A stretch of DNA of 64,000 bases from contig JAJEBT010000109.1 of NCBI GenBank assembly GCA_022822405.1, positions 44,652-108,651 on the forward strand. The letters are read 5' to 3'. This stretch comes from Alphaproteobacteria bacterium. Its GTDB lineage: Bacteria > Pseudomonadota > Alphaproteobacteria > MPNO01 > UBA830. The notes under the pieces are model-generated. The model saw nothing but the letters and a program-made list of their open reading frames with translations, ran no database searches and was not told where the DNA came from. Shown piece by piece: positions 55,214-64,000 of the stretch (positions are counted from its first letter, which is position 1; each line of letters begins with the position of its first letter). The position numbers and the translations under genes were made by a program.

Positions 55214-55314
55214 GGCGGCGCGCCCCCCTTGCCGCTGGCCGCCGTGGTTTGCGGCCCGCCGGGCAATTCCCTATGGTTGCCCGGATCAAGCATGTCTTCA
55301 CAGGGAGAAAAACC

Positions 55315-56322
55315 ATGCGGACAAGGCAAGCAATCCTGGCCAAATGCGGCATCGCGGCGGCGGCCGTGGCGGCGATCGGGCTGTCGACGGGCGCGTACGC
55401 CGCCTGCGGCAAGGTCACCATTGCAAACATGACCTGGGCGTCGGCATCAGTGGCGGCGCATGTCGAGAACACCATCCTCTCGAAGGGGTATGGCTGCAAA
55501 TCCGAGCTCGTTCCCGGCGACACGGTGCCGACCGTGACCTCGATGTCAGAGAAGGGCGAACCGGACATCGCCCCTGAAGTGTGGATCAACTCGGCCCGCG
55601 AGGTCGTCGAGAAGGCGGTTGCCGAGGGACGCCTCAAGATCGCCGGCGAGATTCTGAGTGACGGCGGCGAGGAAGGCTGGTTCGTTCCCAAATACCTGGT
55701 CGACGCCAACCCCGGGCTCACGACCCTGCAGGCGGTCCTCAAGCGGTCGGACCTGTTCCCGGACAAGGAAGAGCCGGGCAAGGGCCGTTTCTACACCTGC
55801 CCCCCGGGTTGGGCGTGCGAGATCATCAACAAGAACCTGTTCAAGGCCTACGGCCTCGACAAGGCCGGGTTCACGCTGTTCAATCCGGGTTCCGGCGAGG
55901 GCCTTGCAGCCGCCATCGACCGCGCGAACACGCGCAAGCTCCCGATCTTCACCTACTACTGGGCGCCGACCGCGCTGATGGGCCGGCACCCCATGGTCAA
56001 GCTCGGCGGCATGAATCATGATCCCAAGACCTGGAGCTGCGTGACCAGCAAGGACTGCGCCGATCCGAAGCCCAACATGTATCCGAAATCCGTCGTGCTC
56101 ACGGTGGTGACATCGAGCTTCGCCAAGAAGGCGCCGGAGGCGTTCAAGTTCGTCTCCTCGGTGTCCTGGCCGAACCAGGTCGTGAACAAGGTTCTCGCGT
56201 GGAAGGACAAGAACCAGGCCAACAACGAGGAAACCGCGAACTACTTCCTCAAGAGCTACGAGTCCGTGTGGACGAAATGGGTGCCCGCGGACGTCGCGGC
56301 CAAGGTCAAGGCGGGCCTCTGA
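55315..56322 (+). CDS. proX: Quaternary-amine (glycine betaine-type) ABC substrate-binding protein
   Basis: The 335-residue protein has a signal peptide with basic start MRTRQ and a hydrophobic core ending GAYAACG. The mature part is an OpuAC-type domain: VTIANMTWASASVAAHVENTILSKGYGC, followed by VPTVTSMSEKGEPDIAPEVW. Aromatic residues such as FTYYWAPTALMGRHP could form the cation-binding cage. AGGGAG precedes the ATG. It is followed by permease and ATPase genes in order, so the system is complete. Choline, betaine, carnitine or a related compound are all possible. Confidence 0.9.
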   Translation: MRTRQAILAKCGIAAAAVAAIGLSTGAYAACGKVTIANMTWASASVAAHVENTILSKGYGCKSELVPGDTVPTVTSMSEKGEPDIAPEVWINSAREVVEKAVAEGRLKIAGEILSDGGEEGWFVPKYLVDANPGLTTLQAVLKRSDLFPDKEEPGKGRFYTCPPGWACEIINKNLFKAYGLDKAGFTLFNPGSGEGLAAAIDRANTRKLPIFTYYWAPTALMGRHPMVKLGGMNHDPKTWSCVTSKDCADPKPNMYPKSVVLTVVTSSFAKKAPEAFKFVSSVSWPNQVVNKVLAWKDKNQANNEETANYFLKSYESVWTKWVPADVAAKVKAGL

Positions 56323-56361
56323 CCCTGACCGGAGGCCGCGCCGCAACCCGCGCTCCCGATC

Positions 56362-57249
56362 ATGGCCGACTGGCTGCAGCAGTTTCCGACGCTCGACGCC
56401 GCCGTCCTGCGCGCGCTCGAGAAGTCGATCGACGCCAGCTACCGGAACTTTTCGAGGAACTATGGCGACGCGATTGAAGGGTTTTTCGATCCGCTGCTCT
56501 ATTTCCTGATCTGGTTCGAACGCCTGCTGCTCCACTCGCCATGGTGGCTGGTGATCGGCGTGATCGTCGGGCTCTGCCTGGCCGCCAGCCGCAAGGTCTT
56601 CCTGACGATCGGGGTGGCGACGGCCTTCCTCCTGATCGGCGTCCTCGGCATGTGGGACGACACGATGCGCACGCTCGCGATCATCTTCGTGTCGTCCCTC
56701 ATCGCCATAGCAATCGGCATTCCGCTCGGAATTCTGATGTCGCGCTCGCATGGCGCGCAGGCGGTCATGACGCCGATCCTCGATGTCATGCAGACGATGC
56801 CGATCTTCGTCTACCTGATCCCGGTGGTGATGCTGTTCGGCCTCGGCAAGGTGCCGGGGCTGATCGCCGTCGTCATCTATGCGGTGCCGCCGGTCATCCG
56901 CCTGACCAATCTCGGGATCCGGCTGGTCGACGCCGAGGTACTCGAGGCGGCGGACGCGTTCGGCGTCGATCCGTGGCGACGTCTGGTCGGCGTGCAACTG
57001 CCGCTGGCGCTGCCGAACATCATGGCGGGCATAAACCAGACCATAATGATGGCGCTGTCGATGGTGGTGATCGCATCGATGATCGGCGTCAAGGGCCTGG
57101 GCCAGCCGGTGCTCCAAGCGGTGACCAACCAATACTTCGCGCTCGGGCTGTTCAACGGCGCGGCGGTGGTGGCGCTGGCGATCGTCTTCGACCGGGTGAC
57201 CCAGAGCTACGGCCGGCGCATCCAGGAAAACCGGCAGGCGCGGTCATGA
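56362..57249 (+). CDS. proW: Quaternary-amine ABC transporter permease
   Basis: The 295-residue inner-membrane protein has about six segments (PWWLVIGVIVGLCLAASR, TIGVATAFLLIGVLG, then LIAIAIGIPLGIL) and the permease EAA loop near VDAEVLEAADAFGVDPWRRLVGVQLPLALPNIMAGI. It works with the ProX-like and ProV-like proteins encoded on either side. Its stop overlaps the ATPase start by four bases. Confidence 0.93.
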   Translation: MADWLQQFPTLDAAVLRALEKSIDASYRNFSRNYGDAIEGFFDPLLYFLIWFERLLLHSPWWLVIGVIVGLCLAASRKVFLTIGVATAFLLIGVLGMWDDTMRTLAIIFVSSLIAIAIGIPLGILMSRSHGAQAVMTPILDVMQTMPIFVYLIPVVMLFGLGKVPGLIAVVIYAVPPVIRLTNLGIRLVDAEVLEAADAFGVDPWRRLVGVQLPLALPNIMAGINQTIMMALSMVVIASMIGVKGLGQPVLQAVTNQYFALGLFNGAAVVALAIVFDRVTQSYGRRIQENRQARS

Positions 57250-58352
57250 CCGACGCCCCGGCAATCAGGATCCGCGATCTCAGCAAGGTCTTCGGCGACA
57301 ATGCCCAGGAGATGATGCCGCTGGTGCATGATGGCATCTCGAAGCAGGAACTTCTCGAAGTGCATGGCCATGTACTCGGCCTGCGCGACATCGAACTCGA
57401 CATCGCGCCGCGGAGCATCCAGGTCGTCATGGGACTCAGCGGATCCGGCAAGTCGACCCTGGTCCGGCACGTCAACCGGCTGATTGACCCCACCGAGGGC
57501 GAGGTCCGGGTCGACGACGAGAACGTACTCGATCTCGACCGCGTGGCGCTCAGGCAGTTCCGCCGCCACCGCATCAGCATGGTGTTCCAGCGTTTCGCGC
57601 TGTTCCCCCACCGCACGGTCATGGAGAACGTGGAATACGGCCTGACCATCCAGCGGCTGGCGCGCAAGGAACGGCGCGACCGGGCCGCCCGGTGGGTCGA
57701 CCGCGTCGGGCTCGGCGGCTACGAGGACTCCTATCCGCACCATCTCTCGGGCGGCATGCAGCAGCGGGTCGGCCTGGCGCGCGCGCTCGCAACGGACGCC
57801 GAGATCCTGCTCATGGACGAAGCCTTCAGCGCCCTCGACCCCCTGATTCGCGCCGACATGCGGACGCTGCTGCTCGAACTGCAGGCCGAGCTCCACAAGA
57901 CGATCGTGTTCGTCACCCACGACCTCGAGGAAGCGATCGAGATCGGCGACCGCATCGCGATCCTGCGCGACGGCGAGGTCATCCAGAACGACAATGCGCA
58001 GGACGTCATCCTGAAACCGGCCGACGACTACATTTCCGACTTCACCCGCAACATCAATCGCGGACGCGTGCTCGTCGTCGGCTCGATCATGCAGCCGTTG
58101 CCGCCGGGACTCGAACCGCCGCCCCAATGCCCGGCCGAGTTGACGCTCGAAGAGGCCCTGCCCGTGGTCACGACCGCGCCCGGCGAGGAATGCTGCGTGG
58201 TCGATCCCGACGGCAAGCCGGTCGGGATGGTCTCGACCATCGGGCTGATGCTGGCGCTGGCCGGGCAGCAGTCGGACGCGGCAGCGGGCGGCAACGGCCA
58301 TGATGCCGCAGCCAACGGCGCCACGGGGGGCAACGGCCGCCCTCGGACGTGA
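57246..58352 (+). CDS. proV: Quaternary-amine ABC transporter ATP-binding protein
   Basis: The 368-residue ATPase has Walker A GLSGSGKST (63-71), signature LSGGMQQR, Walker B LLMDEAFSALD and the H-loop FVTHDLEEA. The long N-terminal extension (VFGDNAQEMMPLVHDGISKQELLE) is typical of the ProV/OpuA group. A short C-terminal part resembles a partial CBS domain (ECCVVDPDGKPVGMVSTIGLMLAL) and ends in a low-complexity Gly/Asn/Ala tail. In that group CBS domains sense ionic strength. Confidence 0.95.
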   Translation: MTDAPAIRIRDLSKVFGDNAQEMMPLVHDGISKQELLEVHGHVLGLRDIELDIAPRSIQVVMGLSGSGKSTLVRHVNRLIDPTEGEVRVDDENVLDLDRVALRQFRRHRISMVFQRFALFPHRTVMENVEYGLTIQRLARKERRDRAARWVDRVGLGGYEDSYPHHLSGGMQQRVGLARALATDAEILLMDEAFSALDPLIRADMRTLLLELQAELHKTIVFVTHDLEEAIEIGDRIAILRDGEVIQNDNAQDVILKPADDYISDFTRNINRGRVLVVGSIMQPLPPGLEPPPQCPAELTLEEALPVVTTAPGEECCVVDPDGKPVGMVSTIGLMLALAGQQSDAAAGGNGHDAAANGATGGNGRPRT

Positions 58353-59864: not shown

Positions 59865-59940
59865 GGGGCCGTAGCTCAGTTGGGAGAGCGCAGCGTTCGC
59901 AATGCTGAGGTCAGGGGTTCGACTCCCCTCGGCTCCACCA
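59865..59940 (+). tRNA. tRNA-Ala (anticodon CGC)
   Basis: The 76 bases fold into a full cloverleaf. The acceptor stem GGGGCCG pairs with CGGCTCC and contains the G3-U70 pair that defines alanine tRNAs. The D arm is AGCTCAGTTGGGAGAGC, the anticodon loop TTCGCAA on a CAGCG/TGCTG stem, the T arm AGGGG-TTCGACT-CCCCT, and CCA is encoded. It decodes GCG. Confidence 0.97.
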
Positions 59941-61335: not shown

Positions 61336-61941
61336 TCAAAGCGTGATGCTGGGATTGCGGAGATTGCGGTCGCAGTCGATGAGATTGACCTGCTTGACGA
61401 GTATTTCCCAGCCGCACGCCGCGTCCGCGCGCCGGCGGAGCCGGTGCGCGTACCAGCCGGCCCAGTTGCGGTAGTCACCGGCCTGAAACTCCGCGGTCAG
61501 GAAATTCGACCGCACCATGACGATATCGGCATCCGCGGTGGCGAAGACGGTGACGTTGGAAACGATGCGGCTGGTCCGCGAACGGGGCAGCTGCGACCAG
61601 GCGTATCCGCTCCCGAGCCGAAAAATTCGGTCCTCCAGCCGGCGGCGGTCGTCGAAGGCGACGCTGACCTCACGGCGCGGATCGCCACCGGACGGCGACG
61701 CGGGCACCCAGTAGAGGCATTCATCGGCATAGAGGCCGAGCCAGTCGTCGTCGCGGCGCTGGTCGAGGAGGCGGGCTTCGCGCTCAAGCAGGCGCCGGCA
61801 GGACTCGCGCACCTCCTGATCGGCGATCTCCAGCTCGTCGGCCTGCCAGTCTGCAAACCGGGTGACGAGGTCGTGATAGAAGGCGGTCCCCACATAGCGC
61901 GAGGTCCGCGACGGATCATCTCCGGTCCCGGCTCCGGTCAT
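61336..61941 (-). CDS. Ring-hydroxylating dioxygenase beta subunit
   Basis: The 201-residue protein is a full small subunit of a Rieske oxygenase (NTF2-like fold): YHDLVTRFADWQADELEIADQE, the EARLLDQRRDDDWLGLYADECLYWVP block, RIVSNVTVFATADADIVMVRSNF near the middle, and VNLIDCDRNLRNPSITL at the end. It supports the hexamer of the catalytic subunit. It lies 43 bp after the alpha gene. No ferredoxin or reductase gene is visible in the window. Confidence 0.93.
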   Translation of the reverse strand: MTGAGTGDDPSRTSRYVGTAFYHDLVTRFADWQADELEIADQEVRESCRRLLEREARLLDQRRDDDWLGLYADECLYWVPASPSGGDPRREVSVAFDDRRRLEDRIFRLGSGYAWSQLPRSRTSRIVSNVTVFATADADIVMVRSNFLTAEFQAGDYRNWAGWYAHRLRRRADAACGWEILVKQVNLIDCDRNLRNPSITL

Positions 61942-61984
61942 GCCGGCACGGTTCTCGGCCGCCGCACCGCGTCCACGGCGGCGG

Positions 61985-63352
61985 TCATGATGCCTCGCGG
62001 GTGATCTCGATGCGCGGCTCGGCGGCCATGAGCTGCCTGTAGAACTTGAAATACTCGCGCAGGAACACCTCGTCGGTTGCCGGCCCGCGAATGGCGCCGT
62101 CCTCCTCGACCCGGTAGCGGTCGGGCAGTCCGAGGCCGCGATGGGTGTAGACCCATTCGTCCTCCTCGGCCGCGAGGCCGGCCTGGATCTGCTCGAAATT
62201 CATCAGGTCGTCGACTTCCCCGAAGTTGGGAAACCCTTCCTGGGTGCGCATCCGGATGGCATTGATGTCCTCGAGCGCGCCGTCGAGCGTCCCGGCGTCG
62301 TCGACCACCGCCGTGCCCCACCACGTCGTGTCGGTCCGGTCCACCGCGAGCGGCTGAACCACCTGCACGTGATTGCCGAGAATGTGAAGATTGGGAAACA
62401 CGTTGATGTTCACGGGTTCCGACGAAGCGAGGTCGAGGAACTCGTCGGCGCGCGCCGGGTGCTCGCGCCTGAGCTTGTCGGCAAAGAACTCCATCCCGGG
62501 ATGGCTGGCCTCGATCTCCCACAGGGCGCCGGGCCGGCCGCGTTCGACATTGCCGCGCTTGTCCTTGAAATGATGGCCGTTGGGGTAGGCATAGACATAC
62601 ATCGGGCGGGTGTCGGGCGAATCGCGGTAGAACGCCAGGCCCTTGGCATCGTCCGTCGCCATGCGGTTCTCCATCGCCAGCAGCGAGCGGTGGGAGAACA
62701 GCACGTGATACCCGTCGGCAGAGTTGTCGTAGACCAGCTTCCAGTTGCCGTGAAGCCGGAGCCGGTTGGCGTTGCAGAGGCTGATCGTGCCGCCGGGCTG
62801 GCGGTCAAGCCATTCCTCGATCGGCCGCGCGACCGGGCCCAGATAATCGGGCAATGGCGGTGCATCCGCGTTGAGCGTCCCGAACACGAAGCCGCGGAAG
62901 GATTCGACCCTCGGCACCTGGGCCAGGTTGAACCGCGAATCGCCGAAGTCGCAGGCATAGCCTTCCGGCCAGGGCACGCCGCTGAGGCGGCCCGAATTGA
63001 AGAAGGTCCAGCCGTGATAGGGGCACTGAAACGCCTTCGCCGAGCCGCTTTCCTGGCGGCAGACGGTAGAGCCGCGATGGGTGCAGCGGTTGTAGAGCGC
63101 ACGGATCTGGCCGCCGGAATCGCGGACCAGGATGAGCGGGCGAAGCCCCATCCGGGTCTGCACGAAGTCGTCGTTTGCGGGGATCTGGCTCTCGTGTCCG
63201 AGATAGACCCAGACCGCGGCGAAGACCCTGGTCATCTCCATGCGGAAGATCGCGGGGTCGGTATAGATGCTGCGATGGACCCGGTCTTCCCTGATCAGCT
63301 GGTCGAAATCGTGGCCTCCGAGGGCGGGAACCTGCAGGTCGGTGCCGTCCAT
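61985..63352 (-). CDS. Ring-hydroxylating dioxygenase alpha subunit
   Basis: The 455-residue catalytic subunit has the Rieske ligands Cys90, His92 (CTHRGS), Cys110 and His113 (CPYHGW), and the iron site Asp213, His216, His221 (ADGYHVLFSHRSL). The C-terminal domain is complete. It would add oxygen to an aromatic or similar substrate using electrons from a reductase chain. It is preceded by a glutamine synthetase-like gene 35 bp upstream in the same direction and followed by the beta gene. That order resembles aniline dioxygenases, where the synthetase first attaches glutamate to the amine. Confidence 0.95.
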   Translation of the reverse strand: MDGTDLQVPALGGHDFDQLIREDRVHRSIYTDPAIFRMEMTRVFAAVWVYLGHESQIPANDDFVQTRMGLRPLILVRDSGGQIRALYNRCTHRGSTVCRQESGSAKAFQCPYHGWTFFNSGRLSGVPWPEGYACDFGDSRFNLAQVPRVESFRGFVFGTLNADAPPLPDYLGPVARPIEEWLDRQPGGTISLCNANRLRLHGNWKLVYDNSADGYHVLFSHRSLLAMENRMATDDAKGLAFYRDSPDTRPMYVYAYPNGHHFKDKRGNVERGRPGALWEIEASHPGMEFFADKLRREHPARADEFLDLASSEPVNINVFPNLHILGNHVQVVQPLAVDRTDTTWWGTAVVDDAGTLDGALEDINAIRMRTQEGFPNFGEVDDLMNFEQIQAGLAAEEDEWVYTHRGLGLPDRYRVEEDGAIRGPATDEVFLREYFKFYRQLMAAEPRIEITREAS

Positions 63353-63387
63353 GGCCGAGTTCCTCCGTCTATCGCCGCGCGGGCCGG

Positions 63388-64000
63388 TCAGAAGAAGTCA
63401 TAATACTCGTTCTGTTCCCATTCGGTCACCTCGCCGCCGCCGTCCCGCCCCCGCTCCGCAGATGCGGCATGGAACCGGTCGAGTTCCGCCCGCTTGAGCC
63501 GCAGATAGTAGTCGATGAACCGGTCGCCCATCGCGGCACGGAACAGGCCGCCGGCCTCGAGGGCGGCGAGCGCCGCGTCCAGGTCGGCCGGTAGAACCGG
63601 CCGCCCGGACTCGTAGGGTGCGTCGTCGGGCGGCGGCGGCTCCAGGCCGCGCTCCAGCCCGTCGAGCCCGGCGATGATCTGGCCTGCGATGAACAGGTAC
63701 GGGTTGGCGGACGGTTCGCCGGCCCGGTTCTCGATTCGCGCGCCGGCGCCGTCGATCACCCGCATCAGGGCGCCGCGGTGGTCGGTGCCCCAGGTCACCC
63801 GGTCGGGCGCCAGCGAATTGGGGCGGAAGCGGCGGAAGCCGTTGACGGTCGGGCACGCAAAGACGGTTCCGGCGACCGCGTGTTCCAAAAGCCCGGCAAG
63901 CCAGGCCTGTCCGATGGCCGAGAGCCCGGCGCCGTCGCCCGACACGAACCGGTTGTCGGCGTCCTCCGCCCCCGACAGGGACTGGTGGAGGTGCCAGCCG
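63388..64000 (-). CDS. Glutamine synthetase-like protein, partial
   Basis: The frame enters from the right edge, so only the last 203 codons are visible. They show the glutamine synthetase C-terminal features: WHLHQSL with a histidine block, FRRFRPNSLAPDRVTWG, the RIENRAGEPSANPYLFIAGQIIAGLDG segment that contains the usual arginine and Asn-Pro-Tyr, and an end VTEWEQNEYYDFF. It is more likely a specialised gamma-glutamyl-amide ligase than the housekeeping enzyme, since it precedes oxygenase genes, but the active-site half is outside the window. Confidence 0.88.
   Translation of the reverse strand, partial: GWHLHQSLSGAEDADNRFVSGDGAGLSAIGQAWLAGLLEHAVAGTVFACPTVNGFRRFRPNSLAPDRVTWGTDHRGALMRVIDGAGARIENRAGEPSANPYLFIAGQIIAGLDGLERGLEPPPPDDAPYESGRPVLPADLDAALAALEAGGLFRAAMGDRFIDYYLRLKRAELDRFHAASAERGRDGGGEVTEWEQNEYYDFF

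Follow-up and report, generated by a model that had tools for sequence, protein, structure and literature searches.

A conserved gene trio for a glutamine synthetase-like enzyme and a Rieske oxygenase in Alphaproteobacteria, with acidic aromatic amines as candidate substrates

The window analysed here, a stretch of 64,000 nucleotides from an Alphaproteobacteria bacterium (contig JAJEBT010000109.1), ends in a minus-strand gene trio encoding a glutamine synthetase (GS)-like protein and the alpha and beta subunits of a Rieske oxygenase. We consider it somewhat probable that the trio forms a single two-step unit, in which glutamate is ligated to an acidic aromatic amine (aminobenzoate-like) and the resulting glutamyl arylamide is then dihydroxylated. 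As judged from sequence, the trio and its closest relatives (the window clade) are distinct from a plain aniline operon, with a clade of their own, an arginine and a leucine in the amine tunnel of the synthetase and a basic patch in alpha; the acidic group on the amine is suggested by these residues and by neighbouring genes only.

By homology with NpaA1 and AtdA1, the GS-like enzyme would use ATP to join glutamate to the amine, giving a gamma-glutamyl arylamide. The oxygenase, again by homology, would dihydroxylate the arylamide at the amide-bearing carbon and the adjacent carbon, and the unstable product would shed its nitrogen side to leave a catechol-type diol. The absence of the corresponding genes suggests that electrons would be delivered by a reductase encoded elsewhere and that no dedicated amidase would recycle the glutamyl amide. 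In PMC11335346, NpaA1 is reported to glutamylate the amine and NpaA3A4A5 to convert the resulting amide to the diol; according to the same paper, NpaA1, A3, A4 and A5 suffice, A3A4A5 act on glutamyl-1-naphthylamine and A2 is dispensable, which fits a cassette without A2.

Conservation of the trio and families of its proteins

All locus counts are based on the best 80 of 301 alpha relatives in genome contigs, made up of 74 non-actinobacterial loci (L015-L088; Rhodospirillales, Hyphomicrobiales and some Betaproteobacteria) and six further loci from actinobacteria. A GS gene is kept beside alpha in 79 of these 80 best relatives, the sole miss (L031) beginning inside alpha at a contig end, and a beta gene is found near alpha in 75. 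Within the 74 loci, GS lies upstream on the same strand in 73/73 and beta downstream in 69/69, the gap between the GS and alpha matches having a median of 78 bases and a maximum of 2651; one GS (L041) has an internal stop within the aligned stretch. In the actinobacterial loci alpha, beta and GS are all there, and an amidotransferase is found in 6/6. The trio is therefore not a chance assembly: an accidental neighbourhood of GS and oxygenase is excluded by the adjacency together with the uniform order and strand, and the pairing from which a preliminary description had proposed an aniline-type amine oxidation system holds among relatives.

At E ≤ 1e-120, alpha is found in 15/20 genomes of the same order, 0/6 of the same family and 0/34 others of the same class, and is therefore common in the order but patchy. 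No published description of this clade was found among the literature matches listed. The own 5-Mb genome looks rich in Rieske oxygenases, with 34 alpha matches at E ≤ 0.001, many of them partial.

The alpha subunit groups with aniline-type oxygenases and not with an unrelated clade, as indicated by bit scores, a tree and plasmid matches. It scores 326-468 bits against GS-paired alphas and at most 250 against others. In the tree, 42 GS-paired and 14 other alphas are split at 99/99, and the window clade, represented by 27 of its 75 alphas, has a support of 100/100; several outgroup branches are long and one outgroup row (out_ownC98) is probably in the wrong frame. The outgroup includes eight alphas of the own genome, for a minority of which the GS neighbourhood was examined, and one of the 14 (contig C167) lies ~14 kb from the GS of that contig. 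Among plasmids, the closest matches are from a Nostoc plasmid (48.5% identity) and actinobacteria (47-49%), followed by 17 others at 41-44%, which include pTB30, pDCA-1 and the 1-naphthylamine plasmid pJS3066, and then by a drop to 36%. Of the 12 clusters examined among the top 21 on plasmids, ten carry an annotated GS-family protein and two unannotated ones (Nostoc and Rhizobium BG4) hold a GS by tblastn; for six relatives at 31-36% identity, the gene table, itself incomplete, lists no GS within 3 kb. An alpha match of at least 60% identity occurs in 0/940 matching plasmid records.

The Nostoc cluster, on plasmid pn1 of Nostoc sp. UHCC 0926 (L098), is an unannotated cyanobacterial beta-alpha-GS arrangement whose GS has Met81 and Phe75; it is the nearest to the window clade in both trees, at weak support.

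The GS-like protein, read as a full-length product joined across a contig junction (see below), likewise falls with synthetases of the NpaA1/AtdA1 type and not with GlnA or PuuA. It scores 374-450 bits against the GS of aniline-type clusters and 416 bits against another GS of this kind in the same genome (C167); the scores against the GS of contig C130, E. coli GlnA and PuuA are 145, 118 and 108 bits. The best solved relative of one ortholog (L017) is NpaA1 (8wwu; 450 bits), followed by a GlnA-type chain at 163 bits. In a tree of 51 rows without far outgroups, 27 of them from the 74 GS proteins of the clade, the window clade and the sad-type proteins are each supported at 100/100, and the aniline-type rows stand together except Nostoc, which joins the window clade weakly (84/53). 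The own GS and its orthologs contain the N-terminal loop of the 15th motif (NpaA1 68-81), where E. coli GlnA has a gap. In Salmonella GS numbering, E129, E131, E212, E220, H269, R321, R344, R355, E357 and R359 are kept in 74/74 and R339 in 73/74; D50 and E327 are retained in 0/74, E327 being replaced by Leu as in NpaA1. In the alignment, the metal, ATP and glutamate ligands are thus retained while ammonium-site residues are lost. Identity as a housekeeping GS or PuuA is ruled out by the bit scores, the solved-structure match and the changed ammonium-site residues.

Amine tunnel, neighbouring genes and the substrate

The amine tunnel of NpaA1 is described in PMC11335346 as formed by loop 68-81, F75, F86 and W235; there, F75A and M81A almost abolish aniline activity and M81W shifts the preference to aniline. 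In the window clade, Leu75 and Arg81 are present in 74/74 GS proteins. Among 18 distinct aniline-type GS proteins, residue 75 is Phe in 16, with Val and His in the rest, residue 81 is Ile, Met, Phe or Val, and Arg81 occurs in 0/18. A blind scan for clade-specific GS positions found six, among them NpaA1 positions 75 and 81. F86 is kept throughout the clade (74/74), residue 235 is aromatic in 68/74, and the tunnel loop is polar, with mostly Thr/Ser where others have Pro/Phe/Phe. The corresponding scan of alpha (75 versus 18 sequences) gave 17 clade-specific positions, including H261, K263, K265 and H328; H261 (75/75), K263 (75/75) and K265 (74/75) replace Ser/Thr/Met, a hydrophobic residue and Gln respectively and are found in 0/18 of the aniline-type proteins. 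In an hhalign profile alignment, K263 falls on V260 of naphthalene dioxygenase.

The sad-type GS proteins, including one on a plasmid of Novosphingobium resinovorum SA1, have Lys75 in 8/8 rows. Strain SA1 is a sulfanilate degrader that grows on sulfanilate; by analogy, a basic tunnel residue may thus accompany an acidic arylamine in one host of known substrate, the link to the SA1 gene pair being presumed. A Lys75 GoaS is also found on a plasmid of Palleronia sp. LCG004 (L127), beside a protocatechuate (pca) cluster and in a stretch with no annotated Rieske gene, a setting that hints at aminobenzoate use by this type.

A class II aldolase (11) or UbiD-type decarboxylase (4) gene adjoins the GS start, within 210 bases, in 15/74 loci. 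The 11 aldolase genes lie 98-207 bases from GS and six are directed toward it; the four UbiD-type genes, from closely related genomes, lie less than 100 bases away and all point toward GS, and pcaD-like genes occur in the same four loci. Both families include aryl-acid decarboxylases and were counted toward an acidic substrate.

The suggestion of a different or reduced system is borne out. Six query proteins detected no AtdA2-like amidotransferase in the 74 loci, and amidotransferase and reductase queries gave no match in the window or in the last 20 kb of contig C78. Reductase or ferredoxin matches occur in 8/74 loci (L024, L026, L027, L072, L076, L077, L078 and L087) and are adjacent in two (L076 and L087); the median locus flanks are 8.9 and 10 kb, so partner genes farther off are possible. 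Queries for glutaminase gave no match near the cassette in any of the 74 loci. In the own genome, reductase candidates (FAD_binding_6) are located on four other contigs and an intradiol dioxygenase on another contig. A complete aniline operon is thus not what is found: no A2 was found, A5 is not adjacent in 72/74 loci, and the tunnel does not combine F75 with Met, Phe, Val or Ile at 81. Of the aromatic or alkyl amine envisaged in the preliminary description, the aromatic part is retained, as an acidic amine on account of the tunnel residues, and no pointer to an alkyl amine was seen.

Several observations weigh against an acidic aromatic substrate or the evidence for it. Arg81 and K263 both mark one clade, and so one lineage, and are therefore not independent observations; two MAFFT alignments set K263 at position 253 of naphthalene dioxygenase, not 260; and the sad-type proteins carry their basic residue at position 75 and not at 81. 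Of the 11 class II aldolase genes, five are directed away from GS, and the aldolases scanned score under the curated cut-off for dihydroxyphthalate decarboxylase. The four UbiD loci are hardly independent because they are at least 92% alike, and pcaB-like genes occur in only two (related) of the 74 loci. In a Pfam tally (218/328 selected ORFs, or open reading frames, scanned; the 25 commonest of 105 and 129 families listed), the cassette neighbours are diverse with no single pathway prominent, and seven ring-cleavage queries gave 0 matches in the 74 loci. The alignment of the synthetase keeps E357 and loses E327, unlike the GoaS text of PMC11335346, which names Glu357 and Asp50' as lost, and the D50 column sits in a poorly aligned loop.

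The trio might instead be an ordinary aniline-type system that glutamylates neutral anilines and makes catechols, the residue changes merely tuning the pocket. Both proteins do stand beside aniline and 1-naphthylamine enzymes in the trees, and an A2-less set is enough for 1-naphthylamine (PMC11335346); this reading is nevertheless unlikely given the replacement of F75 and M81 by Leu and Arg in 74/74, the near loss of aniline activity in NpaA1 F75A and M81A (changes to Ala, not Leu or Arg; same source), the unmatched ring-cleavage queries, and the lack of close alpha matches among the 940 plasmid records, unlike known plasmid-borne aniline genes. It is also quite unlikely that the substrate is a natural amine of non-aromatic or polar character, such as an alkyl amine, an amino acid or an amino sugar, whose glutamyl amide would be hydroxylated or dealkylated to give no aromatic diol. 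The polar tunnel loop, the varied catabolic neighbours and the want of a ring-cleavage match would suit such a substrate; the position of alpha inside the aniline-type clade and the aromatic residues 86 and 235 of the tunnel argue against it, and the UbiD- and pcaD-like genes (four loci) and pcaB-like genes (two) favour aromatic acids in those few loci. As to an ammonia or putrescine GS adjoining the oxygenase by accident, the NCBIfam models nearest to the C-terminal GS part are those of type III and type I GS and gamma-glutamylputrescine synthetase, all far under their cut-offs, and the adjacency in 79/80 relatives, the distance from GlnA and PuuA and the differing ammonium-site residues leave this explanation a negligible probability.

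The two-step unit acting on an acidic aromatic amine may be part of a wider picture, which we put forward tentatively and would sooner doubt than assert: an ancient, so far unrecognised natural pathway of environmental Alphaproteobacteria for acidic aromatic amines (aminobenzoates), with obligatory tagging by a charge-reading synthetase, dioxygenation, no untagging amidase and a shared reductase, and with the pollutant-aniline operons as cousins for neutral substrates. Tagging with glutamate ahead of oxygenation is known chiefly in pollutant-degrading organisms (aniline, chloroaniline, 1-naphthylamine and sulfanilate), and a strictly kept trio with its own tunnel signature in many environmental Alphaproteobacteria suggests that this chemistry is natural and widespread. 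Arg81 would offer a residue-level handle on amine choice by these synthetases and, if the proposal is true, the trio would supply two linked enzymes able to hydroxylate acidic arylamines.

Features of the window and the rejoined synthetase gene

The GS-like, alpha and beta genes are arranged as the preliminary description had it, on the minus strand and separated by 35 and 43 bases (Table 1). Alpha matches the Pfam families Rieske (7.3e-19) and Ring_hydroxyl_A (4.6e-14), and the GS part of the window matches Gln-synt_C (6.8e-46) over profile positions 149-335 of 344. The Rieske cysteines and histidines, the bridging aspartate and the three mononuclear iron ligands of alpha all align with their counterparts in naphthalene dioxygenase; with both sets of ligands intact and beta present, the components expected of an oxygenase are in place.

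Table 1. Features of the gene trio in the window
Feature	Position	Strand	Remarks
Rieske oxygenase beta subunit	61336-61941	minus	ORF of 201 amino acids; Pfam Ring_hydroxyl_B 3.6e-31
Rieske oxygenase alpha subunit, aniline-dioxygenase-like clade	61985-63352	minus	ORF of 455 amino acids; Pfam and tree
GS-like gamma-glutamyl-amine synthetase (GoaS type, predicted), C-terminal part	63388-64000	minus	203 complete codons and stop; open at window edge
20-base exact overlap with end of contig C78 (assembly junction within GS gene)	63981-64000	minus	
Alpha Rieske [2Fe-2S] motif C90-x-H92 ... C110-x2-H113	63014-63085	minus	coordinates from codon positions
Alpha D213 (bridge), H216, H221 (iron ligands)	62690-62716	minus	aligned to naphthalene dioxygenase D205/H208/H213
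Alpha basic patch H261/K263/K265	62558-62572	minus	clade-specific
Alpha D382, third iron ligand	62207-62209	minus	equals naphthalene dioxygenase D362

The contig (C118) stops at the window edge, inside the GS-like gene. Gln-synt_C has five matches in the genome, three of full length and two that are complementary parts, one being that of the window and the other, covering profile positions 3-154, terminating contig C78 of the same genome (L095:19118-20000), where the sought N-terminus of the synthetase was thereby located. C78 ends in the same 20 bases with which the reversed window begins, this 20-mer is unique in the whole genome, the joined reading frame has 491 amino acids, and the best matches of both parts fall in one ortholog clade; the source assembly is 6.2% contaminated. 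Upstream of GS on C78 lie genes for an NCS2-type permease and a class II aldolase.

Elsewhere in the window, ORF reading indicates a glycine-betaine-like ATP-binding cassette (ABC) transporter set (binding protein, permease and ATPase; 55249-58352) with ORFs resembling the major facilitator superfamily on both sides, and a tRNA-Ala gene (anticodon cgc) is located at 59865-59940.

Comparison with known systems

The trio resembles the AtdA1-A5, TdnQTA1A2B and DcaQTA1A2B clusters in combining a GS-like gene, alpha and beta, and its GS and alpha are 44-45% and 43-44% identical to the counterparts carried by the (chloro)aniline plasmids pTB30, pDCA-1 and one from Hydrogenophaga. Unlike the AtdA1-A5 type, the window clade has no AtdA2-like gene (0/74), no adjacent reductase in 72/74 loci, Arg81 and Leu75 in the tunnel and a basic patch in alpha. 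With NpaA1-A5 of the 1-naphthylamine degrader Pseudomonas sp. JS3066 it shares the same three components (GS 41% and alpha 41% identical); in contrast to that system, the window has no adjacent A2 or A5, and the residues F75, M81 and W235 of the hydrophobic NpaA1 tunnel are L, R and Y in the own GS.

An acidic arylamine is the substrate of the sad system (sulfanilate, 4-aminobenzenesulfonate) of Hydrogenophaga PBC, which, like the SA1 pair on plasmid pSA3 of N. resinovorum, combines a GS-like protein with a Rieske protein; the SA1 pair has the basic Lys75 in its amine tunnel. The comparison was made with the SA1 pair, taken by inference as the sulfanilate gene set. The window differs from this type in its separate GS clade (100/100) and its Leu75, and the SA1 Rieske partner is distant, with no beta annotated beside it; the window alpha scores 35-43 bits against SA1-like partners (SA1 itself 35), so the trio does not belong to the sad type. 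PMC5632844 places a GS (sadB) in the sad operon of Hydrogenophaga PBC, and its authors also suspect a natural substrate. The genome of the window holds a second GS-oxygenase pair, which is of the sad type, on contig C167 (L107:16442-19200), with a Rieske gene followed by a GoaS with Lys75; this Rieske protein shares 59-62% identity with the partners from SA1, Polaromonas and Methylobacterium.

The GS-Rieske clusters of actinobacteria (Rhodococcus, Dietzia, Corynebacterium and Pseudonocardia) are also alike, with alpha 47-52% and GS 39.5-47% identical. They differ from the window in having Ile at GS position 81 and an amidotransferase gene that either separates beta from GS or adjoins the two (6/6 loci, and likewise on three plasmids, which also carry ferredoxin, reductase and catA genes nearby).

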